NCBI GenBank assembly: GCA_020344555.1
Contig: CP070827.1
Location: 4,790,497-4,823,332, forward strand
DNA: 32,836 nucleotides
Direction: 5' to 3'
Origin: Phycisphaerales bacterium
GTDB lineage: Bacteria > Planctomycetota > Phycisphaerae > UBA1845
Below the pieces are notes generated by a model. That model did not search any database. It was not told where the DNA came from and was given only the letters and a program-made list of their open reading frames with translations. A program made the translations under genes and the position numbers. Shown here piece after piece: positions 8,195-25,978 of the stretch (the stretch's first letter is position 1; each line of letters starts with the position of its first letter).

Positions 8195-10177
8195 ATGGGT
8201 ACCCGTCGCAGCCAGCATGGCAGGGTGCATGCCGCCACCCGGCCGCCTGCCACTCGCCGTCGTGGGCCGGCCAAATCGCCACCACAATCTGCCCGGATAA
8301 TCGACTATCAGAGCCTGTTCGAGCAGGCCCCCGACGCCATCCTGGTTGTTGACAGCGAAGGTCATTACATTGACGCAAACCCTGCTGCCTGCGTCCTGAC
8401 GGGGTACACACGCGACGAATTGCTGCAGATGCGCATCGGGGATCTCACCACCCCTTCGGAGCGACCCCGCTCCGCCGAACGTTTCGACCTGTTGCAGAAG
8501 ACCGGGCGGACGCGCGCCGATCGCATCCTGCAGCGGAAGGATGGGACCCAAGTACCGGTCGAGGCCCACGCCATCGAGCTGGGAGATGGGACGTATCAGA
8601 CCATTATCCGCGATATCACCGAGCGGCTGAACGCTCAGCAGGAACTGCAGCGCTCACTGGACGCTTACAGCACCCTGGTCGGGCTTTGCAATGCGGCGGT
8701 TATCGCCGCAGACTCCAGGGGCAGGATTACGTCGTGGAACCCTGCCGCGGAGGCCCTGTTCGGGTACTCCGCGACAGAGGCCGGCGGAATGCCCATGACA
8801 AAGCTGATCCCCCGGCGTCTTCGCCGCACGCACCTGTCCAGCTTTCGTCGACACGCCGACTCTGCCACCGAGGAGCCCTTCGGCAGGACGATCTACACCG
8901 AAGCTCTGCGGAAGGACGGAACCGAGGTGCCCGTCGAGATCGCGGTAGCCGTTGGTCAGCAGGCGGGCAGGCCTGTCTATACCGCTGTCGTCCGCGATTT
9001 CGCCGAACATCGGAATGTGATCGAGAAGCTCAACGACGCGTTGCAGCGGCTGCAGTTTCACGTTGAACGTATGCCGCTGGCGTACATCGTATGGGACACG
9101 GATTTTCGCGTTGTCGAGTGGAACCCGGCCGCGGAGCGAACCTTCGGTTACGCCAAGAGCGAGGCAGTCGGCAAGCACGCCTATGACCTCATTGTGCCGC
9201 CGGACGCGGTCTCGGCTGTGGACGCGGTGTGGTTCGATCTTCTGAAGGGCGACACGTCGAGTCATTCGATCAACGCGAACGTGCGCAAGGACGGATCCAG
9301 ACTGACCTGCGAATGGTTCAATACTCCGCTGCGCGATTCGGTGGGTCGGATACGGGGCGTCGCTTCTATGACCGTGGACGTCTCCAAGCGGGAGGCCATG
9401 GAGGCCCAAATTCGCGATGCTCAGAAGCTGGAGGGCCTGGGGGTGATGGCCAGCGGCATCGCCCATGATTTCAACAGCTCGCTGATGATTATCCTCGGCA
9501 ACACCGCGTTATTGCGGTCGGTCAAAGGTCTGCCTGCTGGAGCGATCGAGCACATCGAATTGATCGAGGAGGCTGGGTCACGCGCCGACGCACTGATCAA
9601 GCGCCTTCTGGCCTATTCCCGCACCGGACGCCACAATCCACAGCCCACAGACCTCAATACGGTCATCCAAGACGCGATCAAGTTCGTGCGATCATCGGTC
9701 GGAAAACGGCACGACCTGAAGCTTCGGTTGGCAGATGATCTTGCCACCATCCTGGCTGACCGCAGCCAGGTCGAACAAATCCTCCTGAACCTGTGCTTCA
9801 ACGCCAAGGAGGCAATGGCCGATGGCGGGGCCATAGCGATCACGACGCGGTGCGCTGAGTTGACGGCGGCTGATGCGGTCCGTTGTGTTCCACCCGATTC
9901 CAGGCCGGGGCGGTACGTCGTGATGGTAGTTACGGACACCGGCTGTGGTATGGATGAGGGCACCGTCATGCGGATGTTTGATCCCTTCTTCACCACGAAG
10001 GTGGAGGGTCATGGGCTGGGGCTCGCAGCCGTGCTGGGAATCCTGCGACAGCACAGTGCCATGGCGATGATCGATTCAAAGCCCGCAGCAGGCACCGAGG
10101 TCCGGGTCTTTTTCCCCGTTCACCAGGAGGAGACAAAGCCGAAACGTCGCCGGCCCGCAAGGAAACGCCGATCCTAA
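8195..10177 (+). CDS. Soluble triple-PAS sensor histidine kinase
   Basis: A 660-residue two-component kinase with no membrane segment or signal peptide, so the signal is probably cytoplasmic (for example redox state or a small ligand). Three PAS domains lie at about 37-150, 157-275 and 285-400, two with the typical WNPAAE...FGY core. A dimerisation/phosphoacceptor helix follows, with H-box GIAHDFN (His424), then a HATPase domain with N-box (LNLCFNAKEA), DTGCGM and a GHGLGLA loop. There is no receiver domain, and no response regulator is encoded nearby, so it is an orphan. The frame also opens from a GTG at 8069; I preferred 8195 because the extra 42 residues are low-complexity, although neither start has a clear ribosome-binding site. 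Its stop interleaves with that of the convergent gene. Confidence 0.9.
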   Translation: MGTRRSQHGRVHAATRPPATRRRGPAKSPPQSARIIDYQSLFEQAPDAILVVDSEGHYIDANPAACVLTGYTRDELLQMRIGDLTTPSERPRSAERFDLLQKTGRTRADRILQRKDGTQVPVEAHAIELGDGTYQTIIRDITERLNAQQELQRSLDAYSTLVGLCNAAVIAADSRGRITSWNPAAEALFGYSATEAGGMPMTKLIPRRLRRTHLSSFRRHADSATEEPFGRTIYTEALRKDGTEVPVEIAVAVGQQAGRPVYTAVVRDFAEHRNVIEKLNDALQRLQFHVERMPLAYIVWDTDFRVVEWNPAAERTFGYAKSEAVGKHAYDLIVPPDAVSAVDAVWFDLLKGDTSSHSINANVRKDGSRLTCEWFNTPLRDSVGRIRGVASMTVDVSKREAMEAQIRDAQKLEGLGVMASGIAHDFNSSLMIILGNTALLRSVKGLPAGAIEHIELIEEAGSRADALIKRLLAYSRTGRHNPQPTDLNTVIQDAIKFVRSSVGKRHDLKLRLADDLATILADRSQVEQILLNLCFNAKEAMADGGAIAITTRCAELTAADAVRCVPPDSRPGRYVVMVVTDTGCGMDEGTVMRMFDPFFTTKVEGHGLGLAAVLGILRQHSAMAMIDSKPAAGTEVRVFFPVHQEETKPKRRRPARKRRS

Positions 10178-12099
10178 TGCACTTGCGTATCCGGCGGCTG
10201 GTCGGCGAACAGTCGGATCGCTGCCTGGGGGATTCTCCTGATCTTCTGATAGGTCCAGGGTTGCTCAATGCTGAGATAGGCCATCGACCCTACGAATCCA
10301 GTGAGTCCCACGAGACAGATCACGATTAGCGGAGTGACAACCGTCTTGCGAAGGAAGAGGTAGCGTCGGTCCTTTGCAGTAATGATCTCATCGATCGACT
10401 CGAGCAGGGGCAATCCGAGGCTTCGGGCCACCTGCCCCGAGGCCCGGTAAACATGATCGAACACTTCGGCAAGGACAACGAACACGACGCCGGTGGCCAG
10501 ACCTGCCAGAAGGGACAGCAAGACAATGGTCTGGGACTTTGGGGATATGGGGATGCTGCTACCGCGCGCCGGCTGCCCCTCGGAAAACCGCAGCAGACGG
10601 TTCTGCTCGACTGCCTTGATAGCGGGCTCGATGCTGGCCAGCGTCGTCTCCAGCCGTCTTTGCTTCTGTTTGGCTTGTGCTACCCTTCCTGTGACCTCCG
10701 CGAATTCCTCCTGCTTGTCGTAGACCTCCCGTTTGGCCTGGCGAATCTGGTCGGTGGCCAGCTCGTTGGTTCGCATGCTGATCTCAATGTCCTTGAGCTT
10801 GCCCTTTTGGGCGGCGATCTGTACGAGCAGTCTGGCACGATCTCCGTTGTACGGTTGCCCGGCCAGGACCGCACTTGATGATACCTTGGCGAGCGTGCCA
10901 AGCGATCCATTGGTGACCGCGGCGTCGTAGTCGATGGCGCACTGGTGCTCCAGCTCGTCCTGAAGCCAACCACGCCGAACAAAGAGTTTCTCGATTTCCG
11001 GATGGAGATCGGTCATCCCCCGGGTCGTCCTCAACTCCTCTATCTTCTGGTCTACTTCCCGGATCTGACCGCTGAGCTGGTGGGCCTGGGGGCTTACGTA
11101 GACCTCGTTACCGGGAGTCTCACCTTCATCAGCCGGCTCCGGTCCCGAGGCCACCGGCAGTTCCGTCGCGGCCAGCAACTGTTGCAGCGCTGAGAGCTCG
11201 GCCTGGTACTCTCGTTGCCGCAACTGCAATTCCCGACGTTCCATTTCCAACTGAGCCAGCTTCAGCGAGATGGCACCGGGATTGTTCGGGTCCACGTGGG
11301 GGTTCTCCAGGCGGAGACGGGTCTCCTCGCGCTGGGTCTTCTTCACTTCCGCACCTGCTTCTTGAGCCTCCTGCTCGAAATAGTCACGTTGACTGGTCAG
11401 AAAGTTGCGAATCCAGGACATCGTACGGCGACCGTAGGTGCGCTTCACTTCGTCAACCAGCTTCCTGCCGATGGTCGGATCCGGGCCGGTGTAAGTGATC
11501 CGTATGATGTCGATGTGTTCGCTGGGCGACACGGTTGAGACCCTGAGCCCGGAGGCGAGCGAACGTGCCAGTGCGTTGCGCCGTTGTGTGGAAGCCGCGG
11601 TCAAGGTTCCGTCCGGGTCACGCTCCAGGTCTTTGGTCAAGCCGAGATTCTCGGCGACCTCGGACATGCACTCGACGGAAGTCAGATCCTGCACCATGGT
11701 GTTGCGGAAGTATTTGAAGGACGCGGCGCCCGCGGAAATCGGAAGATTGGTCATCACAGGATCGTTTCGGCGCTCGAAGGACGTGGTGGCTCTGTAGGTC
11801 CGCGGATAGTACAGGCTCAGAACAAATGCGGCGCAGGTCACAATACTGAAGGGGATGAAGAACGCCCAGCGGTGCAGTGACAGCATCCGCAGAGCGTCGT
11901 GCAGAGTCCTGCGAATCTCCGCGAAGGGACGGTCTTCATCGATGACATGCTCCCCCCGACCCAGCGAGCCTGCACCTGTCGGTCGATACCGACCTGAGGT
12001 GTACGCCGGCTTGTTCACCCGCCTCCCACTTTTGCCACGCTTGTGCGGCATAAGCCAAACACTCTGTCCGGTTTCTGCATACGCGCCAGGTCGGTCCAC
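10174..12099 (-). CDS. Wzz/GumC-like polysaccharide chain-length/co-polymerase protein without kinase domain
   Basis: A 641-residue inner-membrane protein of the Wzz/GNVR (polysaccharide co-polymerase) type, which sets chain length or aids export of surface polysaccharide. TM1 is at about 78-98, followed by a long periplasmic region with coiled-coil segments (about 200-290 and 430-500). TM2 is at about 522-547. After TM2 comes a short stretch with VARSLGLPLLESI, like the linker that precedes the tyrosine-kinase domain in BY-kinases. Here it is followed by a third TM (about 589-611) and a 30-residue tail instead of a kinase. The start is uncertain: an in-frame ATG at 12051 (residue 17) also fits, and neither has a strong ribosome-binding site. 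It heads the left arm of the glycan locus, downstream of a glycosyltransferase. Confidence 0.82.
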   Translation of the reverse strand: MDRPGAYAETGQSVWLMPHKRGKSGRRVNKPAYTSGRYRPTGAGSLGRGEHVIDEDRPFAEIRRTLHDALRMLSLHRWAFFIPFSIVTCAAFVLSLYYPRTYRATTSFERRNDPVMTNLPISAGAASFKYFRNTMVQDLTSVECMSEVAENLGLTKDLERDPDGTLTAASTQRRNALARSLASGLRVSTVSPSEHIDIIRITYTGPDPTIGRKLVDEVKRTYGRRTMSWIRNFLTSQRDYFEQEAQEAGAEVKKTQREETRLRLENPHVDPNNPGAISLKLAQLEMERRELQLRQREYQAELSALQQLLAATELPVASGPEPADEGETPGNEVYVSPQAHQLSGQIREVDQKIEELRTTRGMTDLHPEIEKLFVRRGWLQDELEHQCAIDYDAAVTNGSLGTLAKVSSSAVLAGQPYNGDRARLLVQIAAQKGKLKDIEISMRTNELATDQIRQAKREVYDKQEEFAEVTGRVAQAKQKQRRLETTLASIEPAIKAVEQNRLLRFSEGQPARGSSIPISPKSQTIVLLSLLAGLATGVVFVVLAEVFDHVYRASGQVARSLGLPLLESIDEIITAKDRRYLFLRKTVVTPLIVICLVGLTGFVGSMAYLSIEQPWTYQKIRRIPQAAIRLFADQPPDTQVH

Positions 12100-12358: not shown

Positions 12359-13549
12359 TTATACGGCCGGAGGATACATCGTCGCACTGATCACACCGGC
12401 GGTGGTCTTGTCGGGTGTGACCAGCAGCGTCCGGTAGTACGCCTCGTACGCGCGGGCTGTCCGATCGAAGTCGTACTCAGCGGCGCGAGTCCGGGCTGAA
12501 GCCGCAAACCTTTGGCAAAGGTCCGGACTCTGACCGAGCACCGTCAACGCATCGGTGATCGCCGAGGGGCTTCCGGGTTCAACAATGCGCCCCTCGATTC
12601 CATCGCGTACCGTAAGTCCGTTATCGCCGACATCCGTGGCGACAACGGGCAGGCCGGTTGCCATGGCCTCGAGCAGCGCGTTACTCATTCCCTCAGATGC
12701 GCTGCTGCATACATAAGCGTCCATACATCGCATAAGCGCCGGCACGTCCTCGCGCCTGCCGGTGAAGACGACCCGATTGGCAATGCTCAGAGCGCTGGCC
12801 TGCTCGGTCAGCGACGCCAGCAGAGGGCCTTCTCCGACGACGAGCAGTCGAATGTTCGGAACGTGCTTTGCGGCGTAGGCCACGGCCCGGATCAACGCCC
12901 AATGCTGCTTTACCGGCGTCAGAGCCCCCACGGTCCCCACGACGAAGCCCAGGTCATCGAACCCGAAATTGGCCCGCATTCGCTTTCGTGTACCGCTGGG
13001 CAGACTGCCGAACCGGCGCAAGTCAACACCGTTGGGCAGCACGTCGATCCGGTCTGAGGGGACGCCGGCCTGGTCACACAGTTGGCGTCGACCGGCCTGG
13101 GAAACGCTCACAAAACGAGCACCGGCAAGCACGGCCCATCGGGCCTGTCGCCGTTGCCGTCGGCTAAGCGGCTGCGTCGTCTCCAGGCCGTGAAAGCCAA
13201 GCACCAGCCGAGCTCCAGGCGTCAGGATCCTGGCGATGATTGCGTCAATCCAGCATCCCGTGTTACGGGCATGTATGAGCGCAGCCTGATAATCGCGCGT
13301 GATCTTTGCCAGCCCAGGCCCGGTCCACCACGATCGCCCTACTGCGGCGATCGGTCGGCAGGCTACGTGATCAGGCAAACGTGCTGACAGGCGTCCGGCA
13401 CCGCGCAGCGTGACAACCACGTGACGAAGGACTGAGGGATCAAAGGCGCGCAACAGGGCCACAAGTGTGCGTTCCGTGCCGCCGCCTTCCAGCGAGTGGA
13501 TGACGTGGACAACGACTGGATGGTTAGCCGGGTTCATATTGCAGGCCAC
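12359..13549 (-). CDS. GT4-family glycosyltransferase
   Basis: A 396-residue glycosyltransferase of the GT-B fold, family 4, expected to add a sugar from an activated donor to a lipid-linked glycan at the cytoplasmic membrane face. The N-terminus carries a GGGTERTL loop typical of GT4 acceptor domains. The donor domain shows VGEGPL and the E-x7-E signature at E286/E294 (SEGMSNALLEA), then LPVVATDVGDN. The listed start is a GTG. An ATG four codons later (13537) is an alternative. Either way the gene overlaps the 3' end of the upstream membrane-protein gene, pointing to translational coupling. Donor and acceptor cannot be read from sequence. Confidence 0.92.
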   Translation of the reverse strand: MACNMNPANHPVVVHVIHSLEGGGTERTLVALLRAFDPSVLRHVVVTLRGAGRLSARLPDHVACRPIAAVGRSWWTGPGLAKITRDYQAALIHARNTGCWIDAIIARILTPGARLVLGFHGLETTQPLSRRQRRQARWAVLAGARFVSVSQAGRRQLCDQAGVPSDRIDVLPNGVDLRRFGSLPSGTRKRMRANFGFDDLGFVVGTVGALTPVKQHWALIRAVAYAAKHVPNIRLLVVGEGPLLASLTEQASALSIANRVVFTGRREDVPALMRCMDAYVCSSASEGMSNALLEAMATGLPVVATDVGDNGLTVRDGIEGRIVEPGSPSAITDALTVLGQSPDLCQRFAASARTRAAEYDFDRTARAYEAYYRTLLVTPDKTTAGVISATMYPPAV

Positions 13550-14885
13550 CGAAAACGGCGTCCTTCTTGCCTAAGTATGGAATCTCCGCCAACTTCGGGA
13601 CTTCAACATCCGCAGTCGCCTCGCGCACCACAACACGGTATAGACACAGCGGAAGAACAAGAATCCACCAGTACGACTCGCAGTAGAAGCGTTCGGTTCC
13701 CAACCCGGTCACGAAGTACGTGACAAAGGCCACAAGGAATCCATAAGCGAGCAGCTTCGTCTGGGTGGGATGATTTGTGCCGTCGGCAAGTCTGGTACTG
13801 AGAAAGAGAAACCTCAAGGATCCCGCAACCATCAGCAAAAAGACGATGCCGCCGTGGATGCCGAACTCGGTGAAGCAAACCAATAAGGTGTTGTGCGAGG
13901 ATCGTTTGTAGTACCGCGGGTTGTAGGATCCAATCACGCGCGGGAAATTGCCAGGCCCGACACCCTGTGGGTTGTCCGCGAGGACTCTTAGCGAAAGCAG
14001 CCAGATTTCGGAGCGTCCGACGGTGGCGGTGTCCTGGGCCAGCGCTTCCCTGTCGGTGAGTGTCCCCATCCGGTTCCAGAAATGGTCATCGGTGAGCGCA
14101 AACGCGATTACTGCTCCGCCAATAAGAAGACAGTGGATACGATACCGTCTGGCGCGTGGTGCCATGAGAACGGCGGTCAGCACGCCGGCGACAAGGCCGA
14201 TAAACGCCGAACGGGTTCGACATAGAATGATCGTGTTGACCGACAACGCGCCGGCTACCACCGCGAATATGCGCCATCTCCACCTGCGAGCGGTCAGAAA
14301 CGCCGCACCAATGATCGGCAGTACGGCGGCGAGATGCGCGGCCAGGCCGGACGTGGTTGAGAAGTCCGGACCACCGACCAGCTCGAGACGCCCCAGGTAG
14401 AATGCGGAGGCGGGTGACGTGAACGCGTCGTATCCTACGTATAAGCTTCCTGCGACAAGGGTCCAGATCACCAGCCTCAGGTTCGCCCGTGTGGTTGCGA
14501 GCCGCCCGAGGATAAGAACGAACAACAGCATCTTCCACACTTTCTCGAAGGCGTACGCCGAGTCACTGTTGTAGCCGTGGCCAATGACCAGGTTGAGGGC
14601 ACCAGAGGCCACAAGAATCAGTACACCGACCTCCCATAGGGAGACAAAGGGCCTGACTTGCGGCACGTGCTTTCGCCCGGTTAGCAGTCCGACGATCGTG
14701 AATGTGGCCGCCAGCAGGGAGAATCGCATGCCAAGGGCCGCTAGGGGCGCACCCCACCACGTCCACTTCGGGTGCACCTGGTAGGTCATCATGTAATTGA
14801 GCACGCCCCAGATAGGGTTCACCAGCGCCATGAGGCAGGCACCCCAGAAAAGGACGAAATAGAGGGTGGTTTTAAGAGGCCACAT
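13524..14885 (-). CDS. O-antigen ligase/polymerase-like (Wzy_C-type) integral membrane protein
   Basis: A 453-residue polytopic membrane protein with about ten hydrophobic segments. The Wzy/WaaL-type motif is visible around CRTRSAFIGLVAG (about 225-237). A large periplasmic loop follows, with GVGPGNFP and the SSHNTLL stretch, then a C-terminal pair of TM helices. This class polymerises glycan repeats or transfers a finished glycan from undecaprenyl diphosphate to lipid or protein. The N-terminal half resembles O-glycosylation ligases found near exosortase loci, but no exosortase is in the window. Its last 26 nt overlap the start of the glycosyltransferase gene. Ligase versus polymerase cannot be decided here. 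Confidence 0.82.
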   Translation of the reverse strand: MWPLKTTLYFVLFWGACLMALVNPIWGVLNYMMTYQVHPKWTWWGAPLAALGMRFSLLAATFTIVGLLTGRKHVPQVRPFVSLWEVGVLILVASGALNLVIGHGYNSDSAYAFEKVWKMLLFVLILGRLATTRANLRLVIWTLVAGSLYVGYDAFTSPASAFYLGRLELVGGPDFSTTSGLAAHLAAVLPIIGAAFLTARRWRWRIFAVVAGALSVNTIILCRTRSAFIGLVAGVLTAVLMAPRARRYRIHCLLIGGAVIAFALTDDHFWNRMGTLTDREALAQDTATVGRSEIWLLSLRVLADNPQGVGPGNFPRVIGSYNPRYYKRSSHNTLLVCFTEFGIHGGIVFLLMVAGSLRFLFLSTRLADGTNHPTQTKLLAYGFLVAFVTYFVTGLGTERFYCESYWWILVLPLCLYRVVVREATADVEVPKLAEIPYLGKKDAVFGGLQYEPG

Positions 14886-15055: not shown

Positions 15056-16051
15056 TCACCGGCGCTCGTAGACCGCCAGCAGGCAGGACTCGGGATACCG
15101 CAGGCCGCAATGCCGCAGCAGAAGCCGGCAGCACAGCTCGACGTATCGCAACCGCCGGAAACGACCGGATGCCCGGCAGTCATCCAGGCGGACAAAGTAA
15201 CGCTCCTGAAAGCCCGCCGCGCGAAGGACGTTCATGAGGCGCCGCCTGGTATTCATCCGGTAGACGACCCGGAAGGTGTCTCTCTTCTCGACCTTCCACA
15301 CCAGGGTCTTCAATCGATGATGAAACCGAAACGGTATTAGCCGCGCAGCGATGGAGACCGGCGCCCATTTGTTGACCGTGTATACGACCACCCGGCTGCC
15401 TGGCCGGGTCGCACGTGACAATGACGCCAGAGCCTTGCGCGGCTCTGCAATGTGCTCTGCCACCATTCGCAGCGTCACGACGTCGAACGGCTCGTCGCTA
15501 CTGAAGTCTTCAATCGGCTGCTTCACCTTTCGGTGAACGTAACGGTTGTCGTCCAATGTGTCGGATGGATCGACACCCATGAGGAGACCGCACCGGCCCG
15601 CGACAATCTGCGCCAGGCGCGGATTGCTGGGGAATATCTTTCGCCCGCAGCCCACGTCCAGCCATCGCATGCCCGGCTGGATCAGTTTGGCCACCAACGC
15701 CTCATAGTAATCGTCAGGGTTGAAGTAATCGAAAGCCCGCTGCATGCGCGGTGCCCACCCCGCCCGGACCAGGTTGCCGTGTTTGAGCCGAAAGGTGCGC
15801 TCGAGATCCTCACGTGTCAGCGTGATCTGGGAATGTGCAGGTCGATCCGTCGGGGGCGCGACGTTACCTCCCCTCCGGGTGCGTGGTCCACTCGTCATGG
15901 ACACGGGGCACATTTGCGCCGGTCTCATAATCTGCATCACAGAGCTGTCGCCACCAGCCCGGTTCGCCATTAGCTGCATGGTCCTGCACTGCACAGGGGT
16001 CACGCTAAAAATATCGGTCCTTGTCGGCCTGCGCTTAATCGCAGGTTTCAC
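15056..16051 (-). CDS. Class I SAM-dependent methyltransferase (glycan locus, left arm)
   Basis: A 331-residue protein with a Rossmann-type SAM-binding domain. Motif I is LDVGCGRKIF, the acidic end of beta-2 is MGVDPSD, and MVAEHIAEP fits motif IV/post-IV. The recognisable domain begins near residue 75, so the true start is uncertain. ATGs at residues 25, 28, 39, 42 and 52 are all possible, and none has a strong ribosome-binding site. It lies 170 nt upstream of the ligase-like gene on the same strand, so it probably heads the left operon. The acceptor is likely a sugar or lipid carrier by context, but the sequence does not show it. Confidence 0.82.
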   Translation of the reverse strand: MKPAIKRRPTRTDIFSVTPVQCRTMQLMANRAGGDSSVMQIMRPAQMCPVSMTSGPRTRRGGNVAPPTDRPAHSQITLTREDLERTFRLKHGNLVRAGWAPRMQRAFDYFNPDDYYEALVAKLIQPGMRWLDVGCGRKIFPSNPRLAQIVAGRCGLLMGVDPSDTLDDNRYVHRKVKQPIEDFSSDEPFDVVTLRMVAEHIAEPRKALASLSRATRPGSRVVVYTVNKWAPVSIAARLIPFRFHHRLKTLVWKVEKRDTFRVVYRMNTRRRLMNVLRAAGFQERYFVRLDDCRASGRFRRLRYVELCCRLLLRHCGLRYPESCLLAVYERR

Positions 16052-16210: not shown

Positions 16211-17056
16211 ATGGCCGCGGTGATGAAGCTGAGGGCGCCACTTCCACCTGATCGCACGGTCCGTCAACTCGAGAACCACTTTGAAGTGGAAAGGGCCATC
16301 GCCTCACGGCTGAAGCAAGTCGACCGGCCGGAGCGCGCCCACATCTACCGCACCATGTACCACAAGCTGTTCGAGAAGGTCCCCGACCACCCAAGGCTGA
16401 AGCGGCGAGATAATCCCGAGCGCACCGCTGCCATCAGCCGGGCACGGCTCAGACTGCTAAATCGCTTCATCAACAGCAGCGCGGTGATGGTCGAGTTCGG
16501 ACCGGGCGACTGCCGGCTCTCCTACGAACTTTGCAGGCACGTGAAGTCGGTTTACGGAGTCGATCTCTCCGACCAGCGCCGGAATCGTGAGGATGTACCC
16601 GATAACTTCAGGCTCCTGGTCTATGATGGGTACAATCTCGCACTTGAAAAGAACTCCGTAGACATCTTCTTCAGCGACCAGCTTATCGAACATTTGCACC
16701 CGGAGGACACCGCCCTGCACTTCCAGATGGTCAGAGATATCCTTAAAGATGGTGGGGTCTACGTCTTTTGCACACCGCACAAGCTGACCGGTCCTCACGA
16801 TATCTCGAAGTACTTCTGCAAAGAACCCCAGGGGTTTCACCTCAAGGAGTGGACCTACGCGGAACTGGTGTGCGTCTTGAGGGGGCTGGGCTACCGCTCC
16901 TGGCAGGGCTTCTGGAGCTTCAGGTCCCGGTCGATACGCATACCGGTGTGGTGCTTCCTCCTGGTTGAACGGCTGCTGCGTCTGCTTCCCGGCTCCGCTC
17001 GCCGTACGTTCGGGCGGCGCTTCGTGGGGGATATCTGCCTGGCTGCTTTCCGGTGA
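16211..17056 (+). CDS. Class I SAM-dependent methyltransferase (first gene of right arm)
   Basis: A 281-residue methyltransferase with motif I VEFGPGDCRLS (residues 94-104), D118 after beta-2 (YGVDLSD), and DQLIEHLHPED as motif IV. The IFFSDQLIEHL context is typical of small-molecule or glycan methyltransferases. The C-terminal stretch IPVWCFLLVERLLRLL is amphipathic to hydrophobic and could touch the membrane. It is divergent from the left-arm methyltransferase across 159 nt, which must hold the promoters of both arms. An ATG at residue 5 is an alternative start. The substrate is not determinable from sequence. Confidence 0.85.
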   Translation: MAAVMKLRAPLPPDRTVRQLENHFEVERAIASRLKQVDRPERAHIYRTMYHKLFEKVPDHPRLKRRDNPERTAAISRARLRLLNRFINSSAVMVEFGPGDCRLSYELCRHVKSVYGVDLSDQRRNREDVPDNFRLLVYDGYNLALEKNSVDIFFSDQLIEHLHPEDTALHFQMVRDILKDGGVYVFCTPHKLTGPHDISKYFCKEPQGFHLKEWTYAELVCVLRGLGYRSWQGFWSFRSRSIRIPVWCFLLVERLLRLLPGSARRTFGRRFVGDICLAAFR

Positions 17057-17147
17057 GGCCCTGACATCCATAGCAGCAGTCTGGTTCGCACGTACTCTGT
17101 GCACTTAAGGTGTAGCTCAGGAGCCGGTCTTCAGCGTCCGATAGTCC

Positions 17148-18314
17148 ATGAGGTTGCAGGAGAGTGCGCGGCCGAACGGACGGCCGGGCTCCAACGGAAC
17201 CGTTCTGGATGAAGCGCGTTTTCTTATGCGATGGGCTGTCGGTAAGAGGCCGGCTGAGCGGGTGACGGCTAAGCGCCGGCGGCGTTGGATTCAACGTCTG
17301 CAGCGGTCCTGCTGCGAGTATTGGCCTGATCTTGACGCCAACATCAGCGTTACGCTAAAGCGCCGAGTGCATCGGGGATCCGGCGGTTTGATCCTATGTG
17401 GGGTGATACGAGGCACGCGGGCCTGCCGCTCGTTTTGCATAAAGTGGTGTCCTGCCGCGGATGCTACTGACATGGCGCTGACCCAAACGCGCATGACGTG
17501 GTGGCGCCGACACCATCCTGCACTATGCCGTGAGGTCGTGGATATCCCGGCGTTTTGGCCCGACGAGAAAGTCTTGTTGATGGAGGGGCGCCGAGGTGAA
17601 CGCCTCGGCCGACACCTGACCTATGGACTTGCGCCGGTACCGAGGAGTACCTCGGACCTGGATGGCTACAGTACCAGGCTGGGCGAATGGCTCCGCGTCT
17701 TTGCCGGCGGGCATCCCGAATATGGGCCCGACATTGAACCGTTGCTCGGTATGCAAGCCCGACGCCGAGACGACGGGCAACTCACGGTCAACGCCCGCCG
17801 TCTCCTCGAACAGCGCATCGAACGCGGCCGGCAGGCCGCGTACGCGCTTGGCCGAGAAAGACTGACTTCCGCACGCTCCTGGGCCGATCGCTTCGACCTT
17901 GATGCCATCATTGCGGCATTTGGTGATCGGGAGCCGGCCGGCTTCATCCACGGAGACGTGAAGCCCGACAATGTTCTGGTACGAAACGGTGATCTGACGG
18001 TGATCGACTGGTGGACGACGCCGCGGGTAAGTTGGCCGCTTTCGGACGTGGCCACATTTGCCGGGAACCTCCGGCTGTACGGCCAACGTCCTGCTGTGGA
18101 ACGGGCATGGCGCTGCTTCGCGCGGGCCTACTACCCGGTGGGACTGGACGAACGAACAAAGCAGGCCATCGATCTTGTGGCCACGATCATGTGTTTGACC
18201 GCCATCGCCGAGAAACCCCGGCAAACCTCCCTTGGCAGAGTGGCCGCTTCAGTGTGGTATGACCGCTTCGCTCGTCGCCTGGCAGCCACGGCGAGCCCCA
18301 TCGCACAAGTGTGA
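17148..18314 (+). CDS. APH-like (aminoglycoside/choline-kinase fold) phosphotransferase
   Basis: A 388-residue predicted small-molecule or glycan kinase of the protein-kinase-like fold. The catalytic loop HGDVKPDN (H268, D270, N275) and the metal-binding IDWW (D287, replacing DFG) are intact. K99 in FCIKWCP is the probable ATP-anchoring lysine. The length and the alpha-helical insert between lobes fit APH/choline-kinase relatives. The first 60 residues are basic and poorly conserved-looking, and there is no clear ribosome-binding site, so the start may be downstream. Position inside a glycan cluster, directly coupled to a methyltransferase, makes a sugar or lipid-linked substrate more plausible than an antibiotic. 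Resistance activity should not be assumed. Confidence 0.8.
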   Translation: MRLQESARPNGRPGSNGTVLDEARFLMRWAVGKRPAERVTAKRRRRWIQRLQRSCCEYWPDLDANISVTLKRRVHRGSGGLILCGVIRGTRACRSFCIKWCPAADATDMALTQTRMTWWRRHHPALCREVVDIPAFWPDEKVLLMEGRRGERLGRHLTYGLAPVPRSTSDLDGYSTRLGEWLRVFAGGHPEYGPDIEPLLGMQARRRDDGQLTVNARRLLEQRIERGRQAAYALGRERLTSARSWADRFDLDAIIAAFGDREPAGFIHGDVKPDNVLVRNGDLTVIDWWTTPRVSWPLSDVATFAGNLRLYGQRPAVERAWRCFARAYYPVGLDERTKQAIDLVATIMCLTAIAEKPRQTSLGRVAASVWYDRFARRLAATASPIAQV

Positions 18315-18328
18315 AAAGGGTCGTCGAC

Positions 18329-19108
18329 ATGGGCCTCGCAAAGAGCATAGATGGCAACCGCTTGCAGCAGATCAAAGACTCCCTGCGCAACTCATACACC
18401 AAACAGTCCGCGACCTACGATGCCCAGCGGACCATCAGCGCCAACGGAAAGTTCTTTTTTGAAGTGGCCTATCAGACAATTGATGAATTGATAGGCCCGA
18501 CGGATGAAGATACGGTCCACGTCGACATGCCCTGTGGAACCGGACGCTTCCTGTTCTATCTGTGCGAGCGTGGACGGACCCATAATATGCTCGGGGTCGA
18601 CCTTTCCCCGGGGATGCTCCGGACCTGTCAGCACAAGGCTGGAGAACGTTCAAAAACCGTGTCGCTGGTAATGGGGGATGCCTTCCGTCTACCGCTGGCC
18701 AACGACAGTGTCGACATCCTGACGAGCATGCGTTTCTTTCACCTTTTCCCGCGGCGTTACTGGCCGGCGCTGCTTGCCGAGACGTATCGCGTCATTCGTC
18801 CCGGAGGCTTTCTAATCGCCGAGATGCGGAACCTGTTTCGCGGGGTAGCCGGGGCGTTGTATGTGGAGTACCGGGATCGCTGGTTCTACGGCGGTCGACG
18901 GCGTTCGTATGTCTGGCCGCACCAGGTTGGCGGCCTGTTCCGCCGGTGGGCGTGCGTTGAGAGTCGAGGTGTGGGTCTGGACGGCTTGGCGCGCTTGTCT
19001 GCCGTTGCCCCGGGACCGGCGCGCCGGCTGCACGGCCTGACCAGGTATCCGCTCTGCCGGCACCTGGCCAAGGAGCTGGTTGTCAAGGCCTATAAGCCGC
19101 TTCACTGA
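18329..19108 (+). CDS. Class I SAM-dependent methyltransferase (UbiE-like), coupled to the kinase
   Basis: About 259 residues. Motif I is VDMPCGTGRFLF and the following acidic residue is in LGVDLSPGML. Motif II/IV is VDILTSMRFFHLFP, then IRPGGFLIAEM. The frame also begins at a GTG at 18311 that overlaps the kinase stop as GTGA. I chose the ATG at 18329 because AAGGG lies 8 nt before it. Either start implies translational coupling with the kinase gene. The 3' end overlaps the next gene as TGATG. The last 60 residues are basic and may bind membrane or a polyanionic substrate. This could methylate a product of the adjacent kinase, which is inference from gene order only. Confidence 0.85.
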   Translation: MGLAKSIDGNRLQQIKDSLRNSYTKQSATYDAQRTISANGKFFFEVAYQTIDELIGPTDEDTVHVDMPCGTGRFLFYLCERGRTHNMLGVDLSPGMLRTCQHKAGERSKTVSLVMGDAFRLPLANDSVDILTSMRFFHLFPRRYWPALLAETYRVIRPGGFLIAEMRNLFRGVAGALYVEYRDRWFYGGRRRSYVWPHQVGGLFRRWACVESRGVGLDGLARLSAVAPGPARRLHGLTRYPLCRHLAKELVVKAYKPLH

Positions 19109-19800
19109 TGTTGCTGATCACCTTTTCAGGATTGGACGGGAGTGGGAAGAGCACACACGTGGCCCGCACGGCTGACTACTTGTCACGGCGGGGCTATCGC
19201 GTGGGCGCGCTTCCGACGGCACGGATTTCCGCCGGTGGTATACCGGTCGTAGCGAGCCACATGTTGCGGCGGTTGACTCCAACGACGCGAGAAGCCAAGA
19301 AGCAGACCACATCGGCGCAACCACAACACCGAGCGTATGCCGTAGGTCCGGCCGTGCGGCCCGGCTGGAGACAACGGGCCGTGAGCCTTACAAGGCTGAT
19401 CGTTTATCCGCTTGACTGCCTTGCTCTCTTCCTGTCGATTCGGGCATTGCACTGGCTGGGATACACTGCGGTGGTGTGTGACCGCTACGTTTATGACAAG
19501 ATGGCCAACCTGCCGAACGCGAACGGCACGCTTGGGCGGCTGATGTGCCGGCTTGCACCCAGCCCCGACGTCGCGTTTCTGATCGACACCTTGCCGGAGG
19601 TGGCCCGCCGGCGGCGTGAGGAGCATGACGCTAGTTACTATGTAGCGAAATATGCCGGTTACCGGCGACTGATCAGCAGCCGGCGCGAATTGACATTGAT
19701 ACCGAGCACGACAATCGAGGAGACACAAGAAGCTGTGGAACACGTCCTCGACGCCCAGGCAGCCCGACAGCCCATCGCCATCGCCTACCGGACGGCATGA
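19108..19800 (+). CDS. Thymidylate-kinase-like P-loop kinase in glycan locus
   Basis: A 230-residue nucleoside-monophosphate-kinase-fold protein. Walker A is GLDGSGKST (8-16). A DRY motif (VCDRYVYDK) and an Arg-rich LID-like helix (EVARRRREEHDASYY) followed by KYAGYRRL match dTMP-kinase topology. Compared with housekeeping Tmk it has an expanded, basic and hydrophobic middle (about 55-125, including LIVYPLDCLALFLSI), suggesting membrane contact or a different substrate. Its start overlaps the methyltransferase stop (TGATG). Thymidylate-kinase-like proteins turn up in polysaccharide clusters, where their substrate is usually unassigned. I would not call this the cell's essential tmk. Confidence 0.8.
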   Translation: MLLITFSGLDGSGKSTHVARTADYLSRRGYRVGALPTARISAGGIPVVASHMLRRLTPTTREAKKQTTSAQPQHRAYAVGPAVRPGWRQRAVSLTRLIVYPLDCLALFLSIRALHWLGYTAVVCDRYVYDKMANLPNANGTLGRLMCRLAPSPDVAFLIDTLPEVARRRREEHDASYYVAKYAGYRRLISSRRELTLIPSTTIEETQEAVEHVLDAQAARQPIAIAYRTA

Positions 19801-22001: not shown

Positions 22002-22163
22002 ACAACGTGGTTCCGAAGGCGGGAATGGGCGAACTCCCGTCCCGGCGCCTTGGAAGGGCGCTCAGATGGGCACGAAACACGGTGAGAAAAGCCGTTTTCA
22101 ATTGAACCGCGCAGCCTGCCTGGGTACGATGGCGGCTTGAGGCTCGATAAATGGGGAATGTCG
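22002..22163 (+). repeat. 162-bp IS right-end repeat, copy 1
   Basis: Matches 30176-30337 end to end with no gaps. I count about 24 mismatches by eye (about 85% identity). Both copies end in ...CTCGATAAATG-NNN-AATGTCG. This is probably the 3' untranslated part and right terminus of the IS1380-like element. Confidence 0.85.
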
Positions 22164-22190
22164 GTTTCGGTCTTCCCAGCCAGATTGCCA

Positions 22191-22219
22191 TTGCACCAGT
22201 CGGGCTGTTCGATTATGAT
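22191..22219 (+). promoter_or_regulatory. Possible sigma-70-type promoter of the beta-helix gene
   Basis: TTGCAC (22191-22196) and TATGAT (22214-22219) are separated by exactly 17 nt, placing transcription start near 22226 and leaving a leader of about 57 nt before the ATG at 22283. It lies just outside the IS relic. The -10 is good; the -35 matches only in TTG. Confidence 0.4.
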
Positions 22220-22282
22220 ACGAGAAGGCGGGGAAGCCCACGCCCTACAAGCGCACTACGTCACTGTGCAGGAGGTGCGAAG

Positions 22283-25200
22283 ATGTTCCCGCGTCGCGTA
22301 TTGCCCGGGTTGCTTATCGTTGCCTGCTTCGCCGGATCCGCTCAAGCTCAGAACGTTCGTTACGTCGATGACGACGCGCCAGGAGTCGGCAATGGCCTGG
22401 CCTGGTCAACGGCCTACCATGACCTTCAGGATGCCCTCACCGAGGCACTGGGCGATCCGACGATCACCGAAATTCGCCTGGCCAGTGGGACATATGTTCC
22501 CTCATTGCAGACTGTGCCGGGAGTGGCACGCACGGAGGCGTTCCAACTGATAAACGGCGTAACGCTCTCCGGCGGGTATCGAGGCTGTCCAGGTGGCGAT
22601 TGTGATAGCGGCGACCCCGACGAACGCGACACTGCGCTCTACGAATCCATCCTCACCGGCGACCTCGACGGCGACGATGCGGCCGTCTCGTGCACGCGGG
22701 ACGCCCCCGATTGCGACTCGTTCGGAGGCCTTTGCATCGATGGCCTTTGCATCATCCAGGACAACCACGCCGAGAACGCCAAGCACGTGGTCAGGGCCTC
22801 CGGTGTCGACGAGACGGCGGTCCTGGACGGCTTTACGATCAGCGGCGGCAACACCAACGACAAGGGCAGCGGGATGTACAACGAGGAGAGTAGCCCGACG
22901 GTGACCGGTTGCACGTTCAGTGGAAACATCGGCTACGGGATGAGCAATTTCTCTAACTGCAGCTCGACAGTGACCGGTTGCACTTTCAGCAGAAACTTCG
23001 GCGGCGGGATGTACAACCACTGGTACAGCAGCCCGACGGTGACACGTTGCACGTTCAGCGGGAATACGGCCGATGTCAGCGGCGGTGGGATGTTCAACAA
23101 CCACTTCAGCAGCCCGACGGTGATCAACTGCACATTCAGCCAGAACTCGGCCTTCAACGGCAACGGTGGTGGGATGTACAACCACTGGTACAGCAGCCCG
23201 ACGGTGACCGGTTGCACATTCAGCGAGAACTCGGTCTATGGCGACGACATGAGCCGCGGCAACGGCGGCGGGATGTACAACTTTTTCTCCTGCAGCCCGA
23301 CCGTGTCTGACTGTACCTTCAGCGGGAACTCGGCCGACACCAACGGCGGTGGGATGAGCAACGATAGCAGCAGCCCGACGGTGACGAACTGTACGTTCAG
23401 CGGCAACTCGGCCGGCAACGGCGGCGGGATGTACAATGATTATCTTAACGATTCGATGGTGACCAACTGCACGTTCACAGGAAACTCGGCCAAGAACGGC
23501 GGCGGGATGTACAACATATCCAGCAGCAGTCCGACAGTAACCAACTGCACCTTCAGAGGTAACAAGGCTGAGGACGGCGGCGACGGCGGCGGGATGTACA
23601 ATGTTTATTATAGCGATTCGACGGTGGTCAACTGCACGTTCACCGGGAACTCGGCCGACACCGACGGCGGCGGGATGTACAACGACTGGTTCAGCGACCC
23701 GACGGTGACCAGTTGCACCTTCAGAGGGAACTCGGCCGACAAGGGCGGCGGGATTTACAGCTTCTTCTCCAGCAGCCCGACCGTGTCTAACTGCACCTTC
23801 AGCAGCAACTCAGCCGGCGGCGGGGGCGGGATGCACAACAACGGAGGCAGCCCGACGGTAACGAACTGCACGTTCAACGGGAACTCCGCCACGGGAACCG
23901 GTTACTACTACGCTGGCGGCGGGATGTACAACCACGGCAGCAGCCCGACGGTGACGAACTGCATTCTTTGGGGCAACAGCGACGCCAGCGGATACGGCAG
24001 GACATCCCAGGTTTCCGACATCGGCGGGAGTCTGACTACCGTAGCCTACAGCTGCGTCCAAGATGCGGTCGCACACGACGGGGACGTCTTCCCGGGCCTG
24101 GGCAACATCGATACAGCTCCTCTCTTCGTCGATCCAGCGGGTTTGGACGGAATCCCTGGTACGGGGGATGAGGATCTGAGCCTCCTTCCACGCTCGCCCT
24201 GTATCGACGCCGGGGACAATACGGCGGTTCCGGCTGACGTGCACGACATGGACGGTGACGGTGACACGGACGAACCGATTCCGGTTGATGTGATCGGGCT
24301 TTTGAGATTCTTCGACGACCCTTGCGTGCTTGACATCGGGAATCCCGATCCGTCGGAGCCGGACCTGGGAATCGTGGACCTGGGCGCTTTCGAGTATCAA
24401 GGGGACGTCCCCGGTGATCCTGACGAGGACGAGTTGCAGGGCTGCGCGGACAACTGCCCCCTCCACGCCAACCCGGATCAGGCGGATTGCGATGGTGATG
24501 GTCTGGGCGACTACTGCGCCTTGGAGCTTGGGGCAAGCCGCGATTGCAACGGTAACGAGATTCCGGATGAGTGTGACATCTCCGGTGCGACGTCGACCGA
24601 CGTGGACGGCAACGGTGTTCCGGATGAATGTCGGAGAGTGTACTACGTAGACGACGACGCCCCGTTCGAGGGAGACGGGCTTGCCTGGACGACCGCCTTC
24701 GTCTACCTGCAGGATGCTCTGGCGATTGCCTACAATGGCGACGAGATCCGTGTTGCGGCCGGCACCTACACGCCCGACCTCGCCGAAGGCAGCAGCGTTA
24801 CATCCGGTGACCGGGAGGCCGCGTTCCCACTGATCAGCGGTGTGGCGGTGAGCGGGGGCTATCAGGGATGTCCCAGTGGAACGTGCTACGGCTGCGGTCC
24901 TGACGAACGGGACATAGTGCTGTACGAGACATCCCTCAGCGGCGACCTTGCCGGGGATGACGCTGAGGTTGTCTCACCTGATGACCTACTGAACGAGCCA
25001 ACGCGCGAAGAGAACAGCTACTCCGTCGTCACCGGTGGAGGCACGGACGAGACTGCCCTAATAGATGGCTTCACGATCACCGGCGCCAGCGCCAGCGGGA
25101 TGTACAACGTTTCCGGCGAGCCGACAGTCATGAACTGCACGTTCAGCGGAAACTCAGCTCGCCACGCTGGTGGTGGAATGCACAACATCAGCAGCAACCC

Positions 25201-25978
25201 GACGGTGATGAACTGTACGTTTAGCGGTAACTTGGCCGGCAACGACGGCGGCGGGATGTACAACATCAGCAGCAGCCCGACGGTGAAGAACTGCATGTTC
25301 AGCGGCAACTCGGCCGACGGTACCGGCGGCGGGATGTGCAACTACCACGGCCACCCGAGGCTTACGAACTGCACGTTCAACGGAAACGCGGCCAGCGAGT
25401 ACGGCGGCGGGATGTACAACCACGACGGCGCCCAAACCCTGACGAACTGTATACTGTGGGGCAACACGCGCGCCGGCGATGTGCGCGACGAGCAGGCGCA
25501 AGTGTCGGAGATGGACGGTGTGACCTACAGCTGCATCGAAGGATGGGAAGGAGTTGGCGTTGGGAACACCGGGGCTGATCCCTTGTTCGTCGACCCTGGG
25601 TATTGGGATGACCACGGCACACCAGACGACCCGGACGACGACTCCTGGGTTGACGGCGACTATCACCTCCAACCTAGTTCACCCTGCATCAACACCGGCG
25701 ACAACACCACCCCCGAGCTGCCGGAGACAGACTTGGACGGCTACGCTCGGATCATGTGCGATGTCGTGGACATGGGGGCATATGAGTTCGGCATGGGTGA
25801 CTATGAGTGCGACGGCGACGTGTGCCTGGGTGACTTCGCCGCGTGGGAAGCCTGCATGACCGGCCCGGACAATGAACCCTATCCGGAGGGCTGTCAGGCA
25901 TTCGACTTTGCGCAAGATGGAGACGTCGACCTGGAGGATCTTGCCGCGTTCCAAGCCGCCTTCACCGGCTCGTTGTAG
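22283..25978 (+). CDS. Secreted giant right-handed beta-helix protein with duplicated module and dockerin-like C-terminus
   Basis: A 1231-residue exported protein. Residues 1-22 are a Sec signal peptide (cleavage after AQA). Module 1 starts with YVDDDAP (27) and carries about 14 solenoid coils of the type GGGMYN..SSPTVTNCTFSGNSA (about 196-567), similar to chlamydial Pmp-type repeats. A Ca-binding, Asp/Asn-rich linker (about 647-786, with DNCPLHANPDQADCDGDGLGD) resembles thrombospondin type 3 repeats. Module 2 repeats the layout from Y787 with about 5 coils (938-1060). The C-terminus (about 1173-1231) has two Asp-rich EF-hand-like segments, as in Phycisphaerae dockerin-type anchors. The start is set by GGAGG 7 nt upstream; the open frame extends 44 codons further up into the IS edge. 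Likely an adhesin or surface-structure protein; an enzymatic carbohydrate role is also possible, as no catalytic residues can be assigned. Confidence 0.9.
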   Translation: MFPRRVLPGLLIVACFAGSAQAQNVRYVDDDAPGVGNGLAWSTAYHDLQDALTEALGDPTITEIRLASGTYVPSLQTVPGVARTEAFQLINGVTLSGGYRGCPGGDCDSGDPDERDTALYESILTGDLDGDDAAVSCTRDAPDCDSFGGLCIDGLCIIQDNHAENAKHVVRASGVDETAVLDGFTISGGNTNDKGSGMYNEESSPTVTGCTFSGNIGYGMSNFSNCSSTVTGCTFSRNFGGGMYNHWYSSPTVTRCTFSGNTADVSGGGMFNNHFSSPTVINCTFSQNSAFNGNGGGMYNHWYSSPTVTGCTFSENSVYGDDMSRGNGGGMYNFFSCSPTVSDCTFSGNSADTNGGGMSNDSSSPTVTNCTFSGNSAGNGGGMYNDYLNDSMVTNCTFTGNSAKNGGGMYNISSSSPTVTNCTFRGNKAEDGGDGGGMYNVYYSDSTVVNCTFTGNSADTDGGGMYNDWFSDPTVTSCTFRGNSADKGGGIYSFFSSSPTVSNCTFSSNSAGGGGGMHNNGGSPTVTNCTFNGNSATGTGYYYAGGGMYNHGSSPTVTNCILWGNSDASGYGRTSQVSDIGGSLTTVAYSCVQDAVAHDGDVFPGLGNIDTAPLFVDPAGLDGIPGTGDEDLSLLPRSPCIDAGDNTAVPADVHDMDGDGDTDEPIPVDVIGLLRFFDDPCVLDIGNPDPSEPDLGIVDLGAFEYQGDVPGDPDEDELQGCADNCPLHANPDQADCDGDGLGDYCALELGASRDCNGNEIPDECDISGATSTDVDGNGVPDECRRVYYVDDDAPFEGDGLAWTTAFVYLQDALAIAYNGDEIRVAAGTYTPDLAEGSSVTSGDREAAFPLISGVAVSGGYQGCPSGTCYGCGPDERDIVLYETSLSGDLAGDDAEVVSPDDLLNEPTREENSYSVVTGGGTDETALIDGFTITGASASGMYNVSGEPTVMNCTFSGNSARHAGGGMHNISSNPTVMNCTFSGNLAGNDGGGMYNISSSPTVKNCMFSGNSADGTGGGMCNYHGHPRLTNCTFNGNAASEYGGGMYNHDGAQTLTNCILWGNTRAGDVRDEQAQVSEMDGVTYSCIEGWEGVGVGNTGADPLFVDPGYWDDHGTPDDPDDDSWVDGDYHLQPSSPCINTGDNTTPELPETDLDGYARIMCDVVDMGAYEFGMGDYECDGDVCLGDFAAWEACMTGPDNEPYPEGCQAFDFAQDGDVDLEDLAAFQAAFTGSL
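22866..23985 (+). repeat. Coding tandem repeat array 1 (about 14 coils)
   Basis: DNA-level imperfect repeats of about 66-99 bp, each containing a variant of CCCGACGGTGAC..AACTGCAC followed by TTCAGCGG and GGCGGCGGGATGTACAAC. They encode beta-helix coils. Unit length varies, mostly by changes in the Gly/Asn/Asp-rich loop. Confidence 0.85.
25093..25465 (+). repeat. Coding tandem repeat array 2 (about 5 coils)
   Basis: The same coil-encoding unit as in the first array, repeated about five times in the second half of the beta-helix gene. The last unit in both arrays ends NCILWGN instead of NCTFSGN, so the terminal coil is conserved between the two modules. Confidence 0.8.

Follow-up and report, generated by a model that had tools for sequence, protein, structure and literature searches.

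What does a set of two dissimilar kinases and a methyltransferase do beside genes for polysaccharide assembly? The question is raised by a 32,836-nt stretch of a Phycisphaerales genome (contig CP070827.1, assembly GCA_020344555.1; the window). It encodes in a row a methyltransferase (MT1), an APH-like kinase, a second methyltransferase (MT2) and a TMK-like kinase, near genes for a Wzz-like protein, a GT4 glycosyltransferase and an O-antigen ligase. The first-pass annotation had compared the set with the kinase-methyltransferase WbdD and proposed a phosphate/methyl cap or decoration. We propose, with about even confidence, that the APH-like kinase and MT2, helped by the TMK-like kinase as an accessory, are a cassette that works in the cytoplasm to modify a glycan, namely an exosortase-associated exopolysaccharide of the Wzz/Wzy type. 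Decoration of the glycan is favoured over termination of its chain.

Conservation of the three-gene cassette

All four open reading frames (ORFs) of the first-pass annotation are present, each above its Pfam gathering cut-off, and the coupling described for the last three is seen in the sequence (Table 1; window coordinates are used for genes of this genome, G000). The stop codon of the APH-like gene overlaps the GTG start of MT2 by 4 nt (GTGA), while an alternative ATG start of MT2 at 18329 gives a 14-nt gap. The stop of MT2 and the ATG of the TMK-like gene overlap as TGATG. A 91-nt gap separates MT1 from the APH-like gene. MT1 is probably an operon mate of the trio; judged by its occurrence in G000 and the genus mate G002 only, it is outside the conserved module.

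One genome per species, 84,980 species in all, was scanned with the APH alignment by means of peptide patterns, which divergent members can escape. Only seven strong relatives were found, six titled Planctomycetota/Phycisphaerae and one titled Alphaproteobacteria. This last locus (L020, JANQQE010000030.1) is syntenic with the Phycisphaerae loci, and its contig, which also occurs as G006, is assigned to the family of the window; the record is probably mistitled. The APH-like, MT2 and TMK-like genes are colinear in seven genomes of two genera (G000, G002, G006, G490, G491, G492 and G493), so the objection foreseen in the first-pass annotation, that the trio might not be conserved together, fails. 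Each of the three proteins is 32–41% identical between the genera, and the VDMPxGTG motif of MT2 is kept in seven aligned orthologues. An O-ligase/Wzy homologue and a GT4 gene lie within ~10 kb in six of the seven trio loci, the exception being G490, where the contig starts at the APH-like gene. The module is rare: among 114 genomes of the order, nine have the APH family, and an even phylum sample of 392 genomes shows it in the window's genome only; the phylum survey is a sample, and several relatives are fragmented metagenome-assembled genomes.

By tblastn, the entire region is kept in G002 at ~79–93% identity, the beta-helix protein described below excepted. The ratio of nonsynonymous to synonymous substitution rates between G000 and G002 is 0.29 for the APH-like gene, 0.27 for MT2 and 0.19 for the TMK-like gene, and at the sequence level purifying selection on the cassette is clear. 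The recurrence of the gene order in seven genomes, together with these ratios, argues that the cassette is more than a chance arrangement.

The kinase-methyltransferase pair and its accessory kinase

Two further genomes show which part of the trio is constant. G001, of the same genus as the window, and G478, of another family, carry an APH-like kinase gene followed directly by a methyltransferase gene, with no TMK-like gene beside them. Their methyltransferases are 51% identical to each other and 22–26% identical to MT2, and are not MT2 orthologues. In all nine genomes with the APH family, kinase and methyltransferase are adjacent, encoded by separate ORFs and have intact motifs. This exchange of the methyltransferase, with the pairing itself retained, is the best evidence that both enzymes act in one pathway, and the use of two unrelated methyltransferases by one kinase family points to sequential action. 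In both G001 and G478 the contig continues past the methyltransferase into a gene that is not TMK-like, although assembly loss could explain part of this pattern. No TMK match is found in the whole G001 genome at E = 0.001, in an assembly that is incomplete. From this comparison of gene content, the APH-like kinase and a methyltransferase are the core of the module and the TMK-like kinase is an accessory, which suggests that the latter is dispensable.

The APH-like kinase

The first-pass annotation had called for structure prediction of both kinases, and the models, built on 7–8 sequences each, agree with the assigned folds. The AlphaFold model of the APH-like protein (mean predicted local distance difference test score, pLDDT, 74.7) has a genuine APH fold. 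Lys99, the HGDxKPxN motif with D270 and N275, and Asp287 are invariant in the family alignment. The top VIA match of the model is TvaE (Z 20.9 over 280 residues, 3.4 Å), followed by PsiK (20.2), methylthioribose kinase (19.0), glucosamine kinase (18.4), maltokinase (18.1), AmiN (17.8), LxmK (17.7) and LicA (16.4). With neighbours of such varied substrates, the acceptor cannot be read from the fold. The longest helix of the model, 21 residues, is below the length of a coiled-coil ruler.

Several assignments for this protein or the cassette were considered and rejected. WbdD appears as a weak match of the APH profile (E = 0.0019–0.0024), amid eukaryotic protein kinases; the similarity is confined to motifs and membership in the WbdD family is rejected. 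WbdD chains are missing from the 50 VIA matches listed for the model, an absence that proves nothing. For LicA-type phosphocholine decoration, LicA is a structural match of middling rank, but no LicC/LicD-like partner is recognised among the annotated neighbours. A phage origin of the cassette is rejected as well, the PHROGs matches being only to general methyltransferases and TMK.

The TMK-like kinase and its altered acceptor site

The model of the TMK-like protein (pLDDT 67.6, with low confidence at residues 38–48 and 57–85) has the fold of deoxythymidine monophosphate (dTMP) kinase, with Z 18.8 to dTMP kinases, and its longest helix, 30 residues, is also below ruler length. The protein shares with bacterial Tmk (TIGR00041/PF02223) the fold, the P-loop GxDGxGK and the DR[YF] (DRY) motif, but differs at the acceptor site. 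When aligned to seven housekeeping Tmk sequences from relatives, all seven family members have YPxDC in place of FMASR/MASRA and DRYxxDK in place of the DRFxxSxxAYQ-like (SxxAYQ) sequence, while the FxxSR and SxxAYQ motifs are present in the seven housekeeping proteins, S or A variants aside. The TIGR00041 score is 34.8 bits against a cut-off of 83.25. The acceptor helix of the TMK-like protein is hydrophobic, with a 19-residue mean of 1.4–1.8 compared with 0.6–1.2 in Tmk; this points only faintly to a lipid-linked acceptor and is not used as proof.

A genuine tmk gene separate from the TMK-like gene is present in 14 of the 15 genomes searched, and the trio-bearing relatives show it at E values of 1e-27 to 1e-38. 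The TIGR00041 search over the G000 genome gives no match, which is explained by a truncated tmk: only a C-terminal fragment is found, the last 38–40 residues at 93–97% identity (L089, G000:C1:1679806-1679925). The fragment is a probable assembly lesion, in line with the completeness of 71% rated for this assembly of one 5.25-Mb contig.

Three distant TMK-like relatives elsewhere in the phylum have partners that are glycan-related or are kinases. One (L034) is fused to two GT4 domains. Another (L033) stands behind a fused N-terminal part that by eye looks nucleotidyltransferase-like, without a Pfam match, in a CpsD/glycosyltransferase locus. A third (L035) adjoins another APH kinase and a PF14907 nucleotidyltransferase. 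As a separate observation, TMK-like genes are in tandem in G042 and ~3 kb apart in G031 (L070, L069), near genes that by eye look like CHAD-domain and Ppx/GppA-type polyphosphate genes; from this gene context, a polyphosphate-linked role of this other TMK-like group is possible.

Genomic surroundings of the cassette

The Wzz-like, GT4 and O-antigen ligase neighbours named by the first-pass annotation hold up (Table 1), although their NCBIfam matches are below the curated cut-offs. A divergent methyltransferase, MT0, was absent from that list. The SGNH/GDSL gene is kept beside the cassette within the genus, and its product is possibly a glycan O-acyl hydrolase or transferase.

Table 1. Cassette genes and neighbouring glycan-related genes in the window
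Feature	Position	Strand	Basis
Wzz/polysaccharide co-polymerase (PCP)-like chain-length protein	10174-12099	-	TIGR03007 81.3 bits, cut-off 278.85 not reached; hydrophobic segments near both ends
GT4 glycosyltransferase	12359-13549	-	PF13692; TIGR03088 216.7 bits, cut-off 409.05 not reached
O-antigen ligase/Wzy-like polymerase	13524-14885	-	PF04932 54.4 bits; TIGR03097 81.2 bits, cut-off 188.1 not reached
MT0, divergent methyltransferase	15056-16051	-	PF13489; kept in genus (82% and 60%)
MT1, methyltransferase	16211-17056	+	PF08241 above Pfam gathering cut-off; 81% orthologue in G002 only
APH-fold small-molecule kinase, module core	17148-18314	+	PF01636 38.6 bits (gathering cut-off 23.2); predicted fold; invariant catalytic residues
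MT2, class I S-adenosylmethionine (SAM)-dependent methyltransferase, module core	18311-19108	+	PF13649/PF08241 above gathering cut-offs; VDMPxGTG motif
TMK-like P-loop kinase, altered acceptor site, module accessory	19108-19800	+	PF02223 37 bits; predicted fold; dTMP-binding motifs replaced
SGNH/GDSL-family protein, N-terminal hydrophobic segment	20180-21400	-	PF13472; 92% in G002; C-terminal part in G001

The best NCBIfam matches of the Wzz, GT4 and O-ligase neighbours are families of XrtA/PEP-CTERM (exosortase A) exopolysaccharide loci. The locus differs from these in that TIGR03007, TIGR03088 and TIGR03097 all score below cut-off, and in that the exosortase, priming glycosyltransferase and Wzc-like genes are ~75 kb from the window. 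Exosortase (PF09721) is present in all 14 genomes searched, and G000 has two. At G000:C1:4711000-4718000 (L087), to the left of the window, an exosortase is fused behind a nucleotidyltransferase/hexapeptide region, and the same locus holds DUF3485, a Wzc-like ATPase and a priming glycosyltransferase.

Two side observations concern the flanks. A 1275-aa right-handed beta-helix protein is encoded at 22151-25978, whereas G002 lacks a counterpart between its GDSL and FxsA genes; by this comparison the gene is a lineage-specific insertion or loss. In genus g5 a second O-ligase/Wzy paralogue adjoins the cassette (L022:7797-9710, L018:7792-9717, L019:7718-9646 and L012:2834-4762). In the L022 paralogue an FKBP-type prolyl isomerase domain follows at the C-terminus (PF04932 + PF00254); the remaining three have a similar length. 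Its domain composition makes the L022 protein an unusual fusion of a membrane glycan enzyme and a chaperone.

Proposed role and alternatives

The proposal of a glycan-modification cassette builds on the arrangement of the genes, their conservation, the predicted folds, intact catalytic motifs and the lost dTMP site. The partners of the three distant TMK-like relatives also speak for it, and the Klebsiella O7 terminator described below gives it a precedent (PMC11231755). The APH-like kinase would phosphorylate a hydroxyl of a sugar precursor or of a lipid-linked repeat unit, and MT2 would methylate the product, on the phosphate or on a nearby hydroxyl. The TMK-like kinase would add a further phosphoryl transfer to the pathway, with an acceptor other than dTMP. 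The modified unit would be exported and polymerised afterwards. It is conceivable, if doubtful, that the three enzymes, as separate proteins within a Wzy-type pathway, act in sequence and leave a substituent that is a methylated phosphate or diphosphate. To our knowledge, no other member of the TMK fold is known to use a glycan or a lipid-linked acceptor, and our literature search found no described APH/TMK/methyltransferase glycan system.

Several points weigh against this proposal. No glycan biosynthesis gene is seen on the 7.4-kb contig that carries the kinase-methyltransferase pair of G478, so a link to glycan genes cannot be claimed for every locus. The NCBIfam matches of all three assembly genes are subthreshold, as stated above. 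APH-fold kinases take very diverse small molecules, and the glycan substrate, the order of steps, the site of methylation and the acceptor of the TMK-like kinase are all inferred. In most of genus g5 the gap between the APH-like gene and MT2 reaches 72–172 nt, so translational coupling is not universal.

The main rival to decoration is a sugar-activation pathway. Here the APH-like protein would be an anomeric sugar kinase comparable to glucosamine kinase or NahK, the TMK-like protein would phosphorylate a nucleotide or a sugar phosphate, and the target of the methyltransferases would be the sugar. The structural neighbours glucosamine kinase, maltokinase and methylthioribose kinase speak for it, as does the acceptor of TMK-fold enzymes, which is classically a phosphate. 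However, no sugar nucleotidyltransferase is among the genes of the module or its annotated immediate neighbours, and the methyltransferases are kept with or without TMK. We regard this pathway as unlikely, while taking it seriously.

A split chain-terminating cap is rather improbable. In this scheme the APH-like kinase would phosphorylate the non-reducing end and MT2 would methylate the phosphate, in the manner of WbdD and the O7 protein, setting or marking the chain end. The chemistry has precedent, since methylphosphate termini are the product of kinase-methyltransferase pairs, and the weak, motif-level WbdD match of the APH profile also speaks for this scheme. ORF6-N of Klebsiella pneumoniae O7 comprises a methyltransferase and a kinase and is an experimentally shown methylphosphate terminator; by predicted fold its kinase domain is most like the APH-type kinase AmiN (PMC11231755), which is also among the neighbours of our model. 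This fusion of an APH-like kinase to a methyltransferase sharpens the comparison with WbdD made at first pass. Like the O7 protein, the cassette pairs a class I methyltransferase with an APH-like kinase in a putative surface-glycan setting. The O7 protein, however, combines both activities in a single chain that also has a coiled-coil ruler and a carbohydrate-binding module, and it belongs to an ATP-binding cassette (ABC) transporter pathway, whereas the cassette has separate enzymes, no ruler in either kinase model, a Wzz/Wzy-like locus and an extra TMK-like kinase. WbdD of E. coli O8/O9a and Klebsiella O3/O5 likewise brings a kinase and a SAM-dependent methyltransferase into a glycan locus, but it is a single fused protein with a ruler and depends on an ABC transporter, and its kinase resembles the APH profile at the level of motifs only.

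Known terminators have a coiled-coil ruler and are part of ABC pathways (PMC11231755), but the enzymes here are separate ORFs at all loci and neither kinase model has a ruler-length helix. No ABC exporter is seen among the annotated genes of the window, the flanks and the exosortase locus, where annotation outside the window covers selected ORFs and Wzm/Wzt and flippases were not sought genome-wide. A Wzz-like regulator in the window accounts for chain length, and a cap would leave the TMK-like kinase without explanation. That these terminator features are lacking or not seen here, together with the Wzz-like regulator, favours decoration over capping. Of the cap or decoration first proposed, a phosphate/methyl modification is supported by the conserved trio, the glycan-polymer neighbours at nearly all loci, the catalytic signatures of both kinases, the lost dTMP site and the O7 precedent, and the chain-end cap is not supported.

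A non-glycan small-molecule or natural-product pathway, placed next to polysaccharide genes by chance, is distinctly improbable. It could resemble pathways for ribosomally synthesized and post-translationally modified peptides (RiPPs), since the RiPP kinases TvaE and LxmK are among the top structural matches, LxmK is also a weak NCBIfam match, and the G478 pair lies away from obvious glycan genes. Against this, no RiPP partner gene is recognised among the annotated neighbours, and O-ligase/Wzy genes adjoin the module in six of the seven trio loci and in G001. Finally, an ordinary dTMP kinase and an antibiotic-resistance phosphotransferase beside unrelated methyltransferases, as the Pfam names would have it and as the first-pass annotation had allowed for, is scarcely credible and both roles are rejected: the dTMP motifs are lost and trio-bearing relatives have a separate Tmk, while the APH family is chromosomal, syntenic and lineage-restricted, has no mobile or resistance context and has no match in 72,556 plasmids.

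Implications

If the decoration proposal is true, stand-alone enzymes make phosphate/methyl modifications of bacterial surface glycans outside the ABC-transporter O-antigen pathway too, and glycan assembly would become a role of a dTMP-kinase-like family that annotation labels by its fold. The cassette would also offer a handle on the surface polysaccharides of Planctomycetota, which are almost unstudied.

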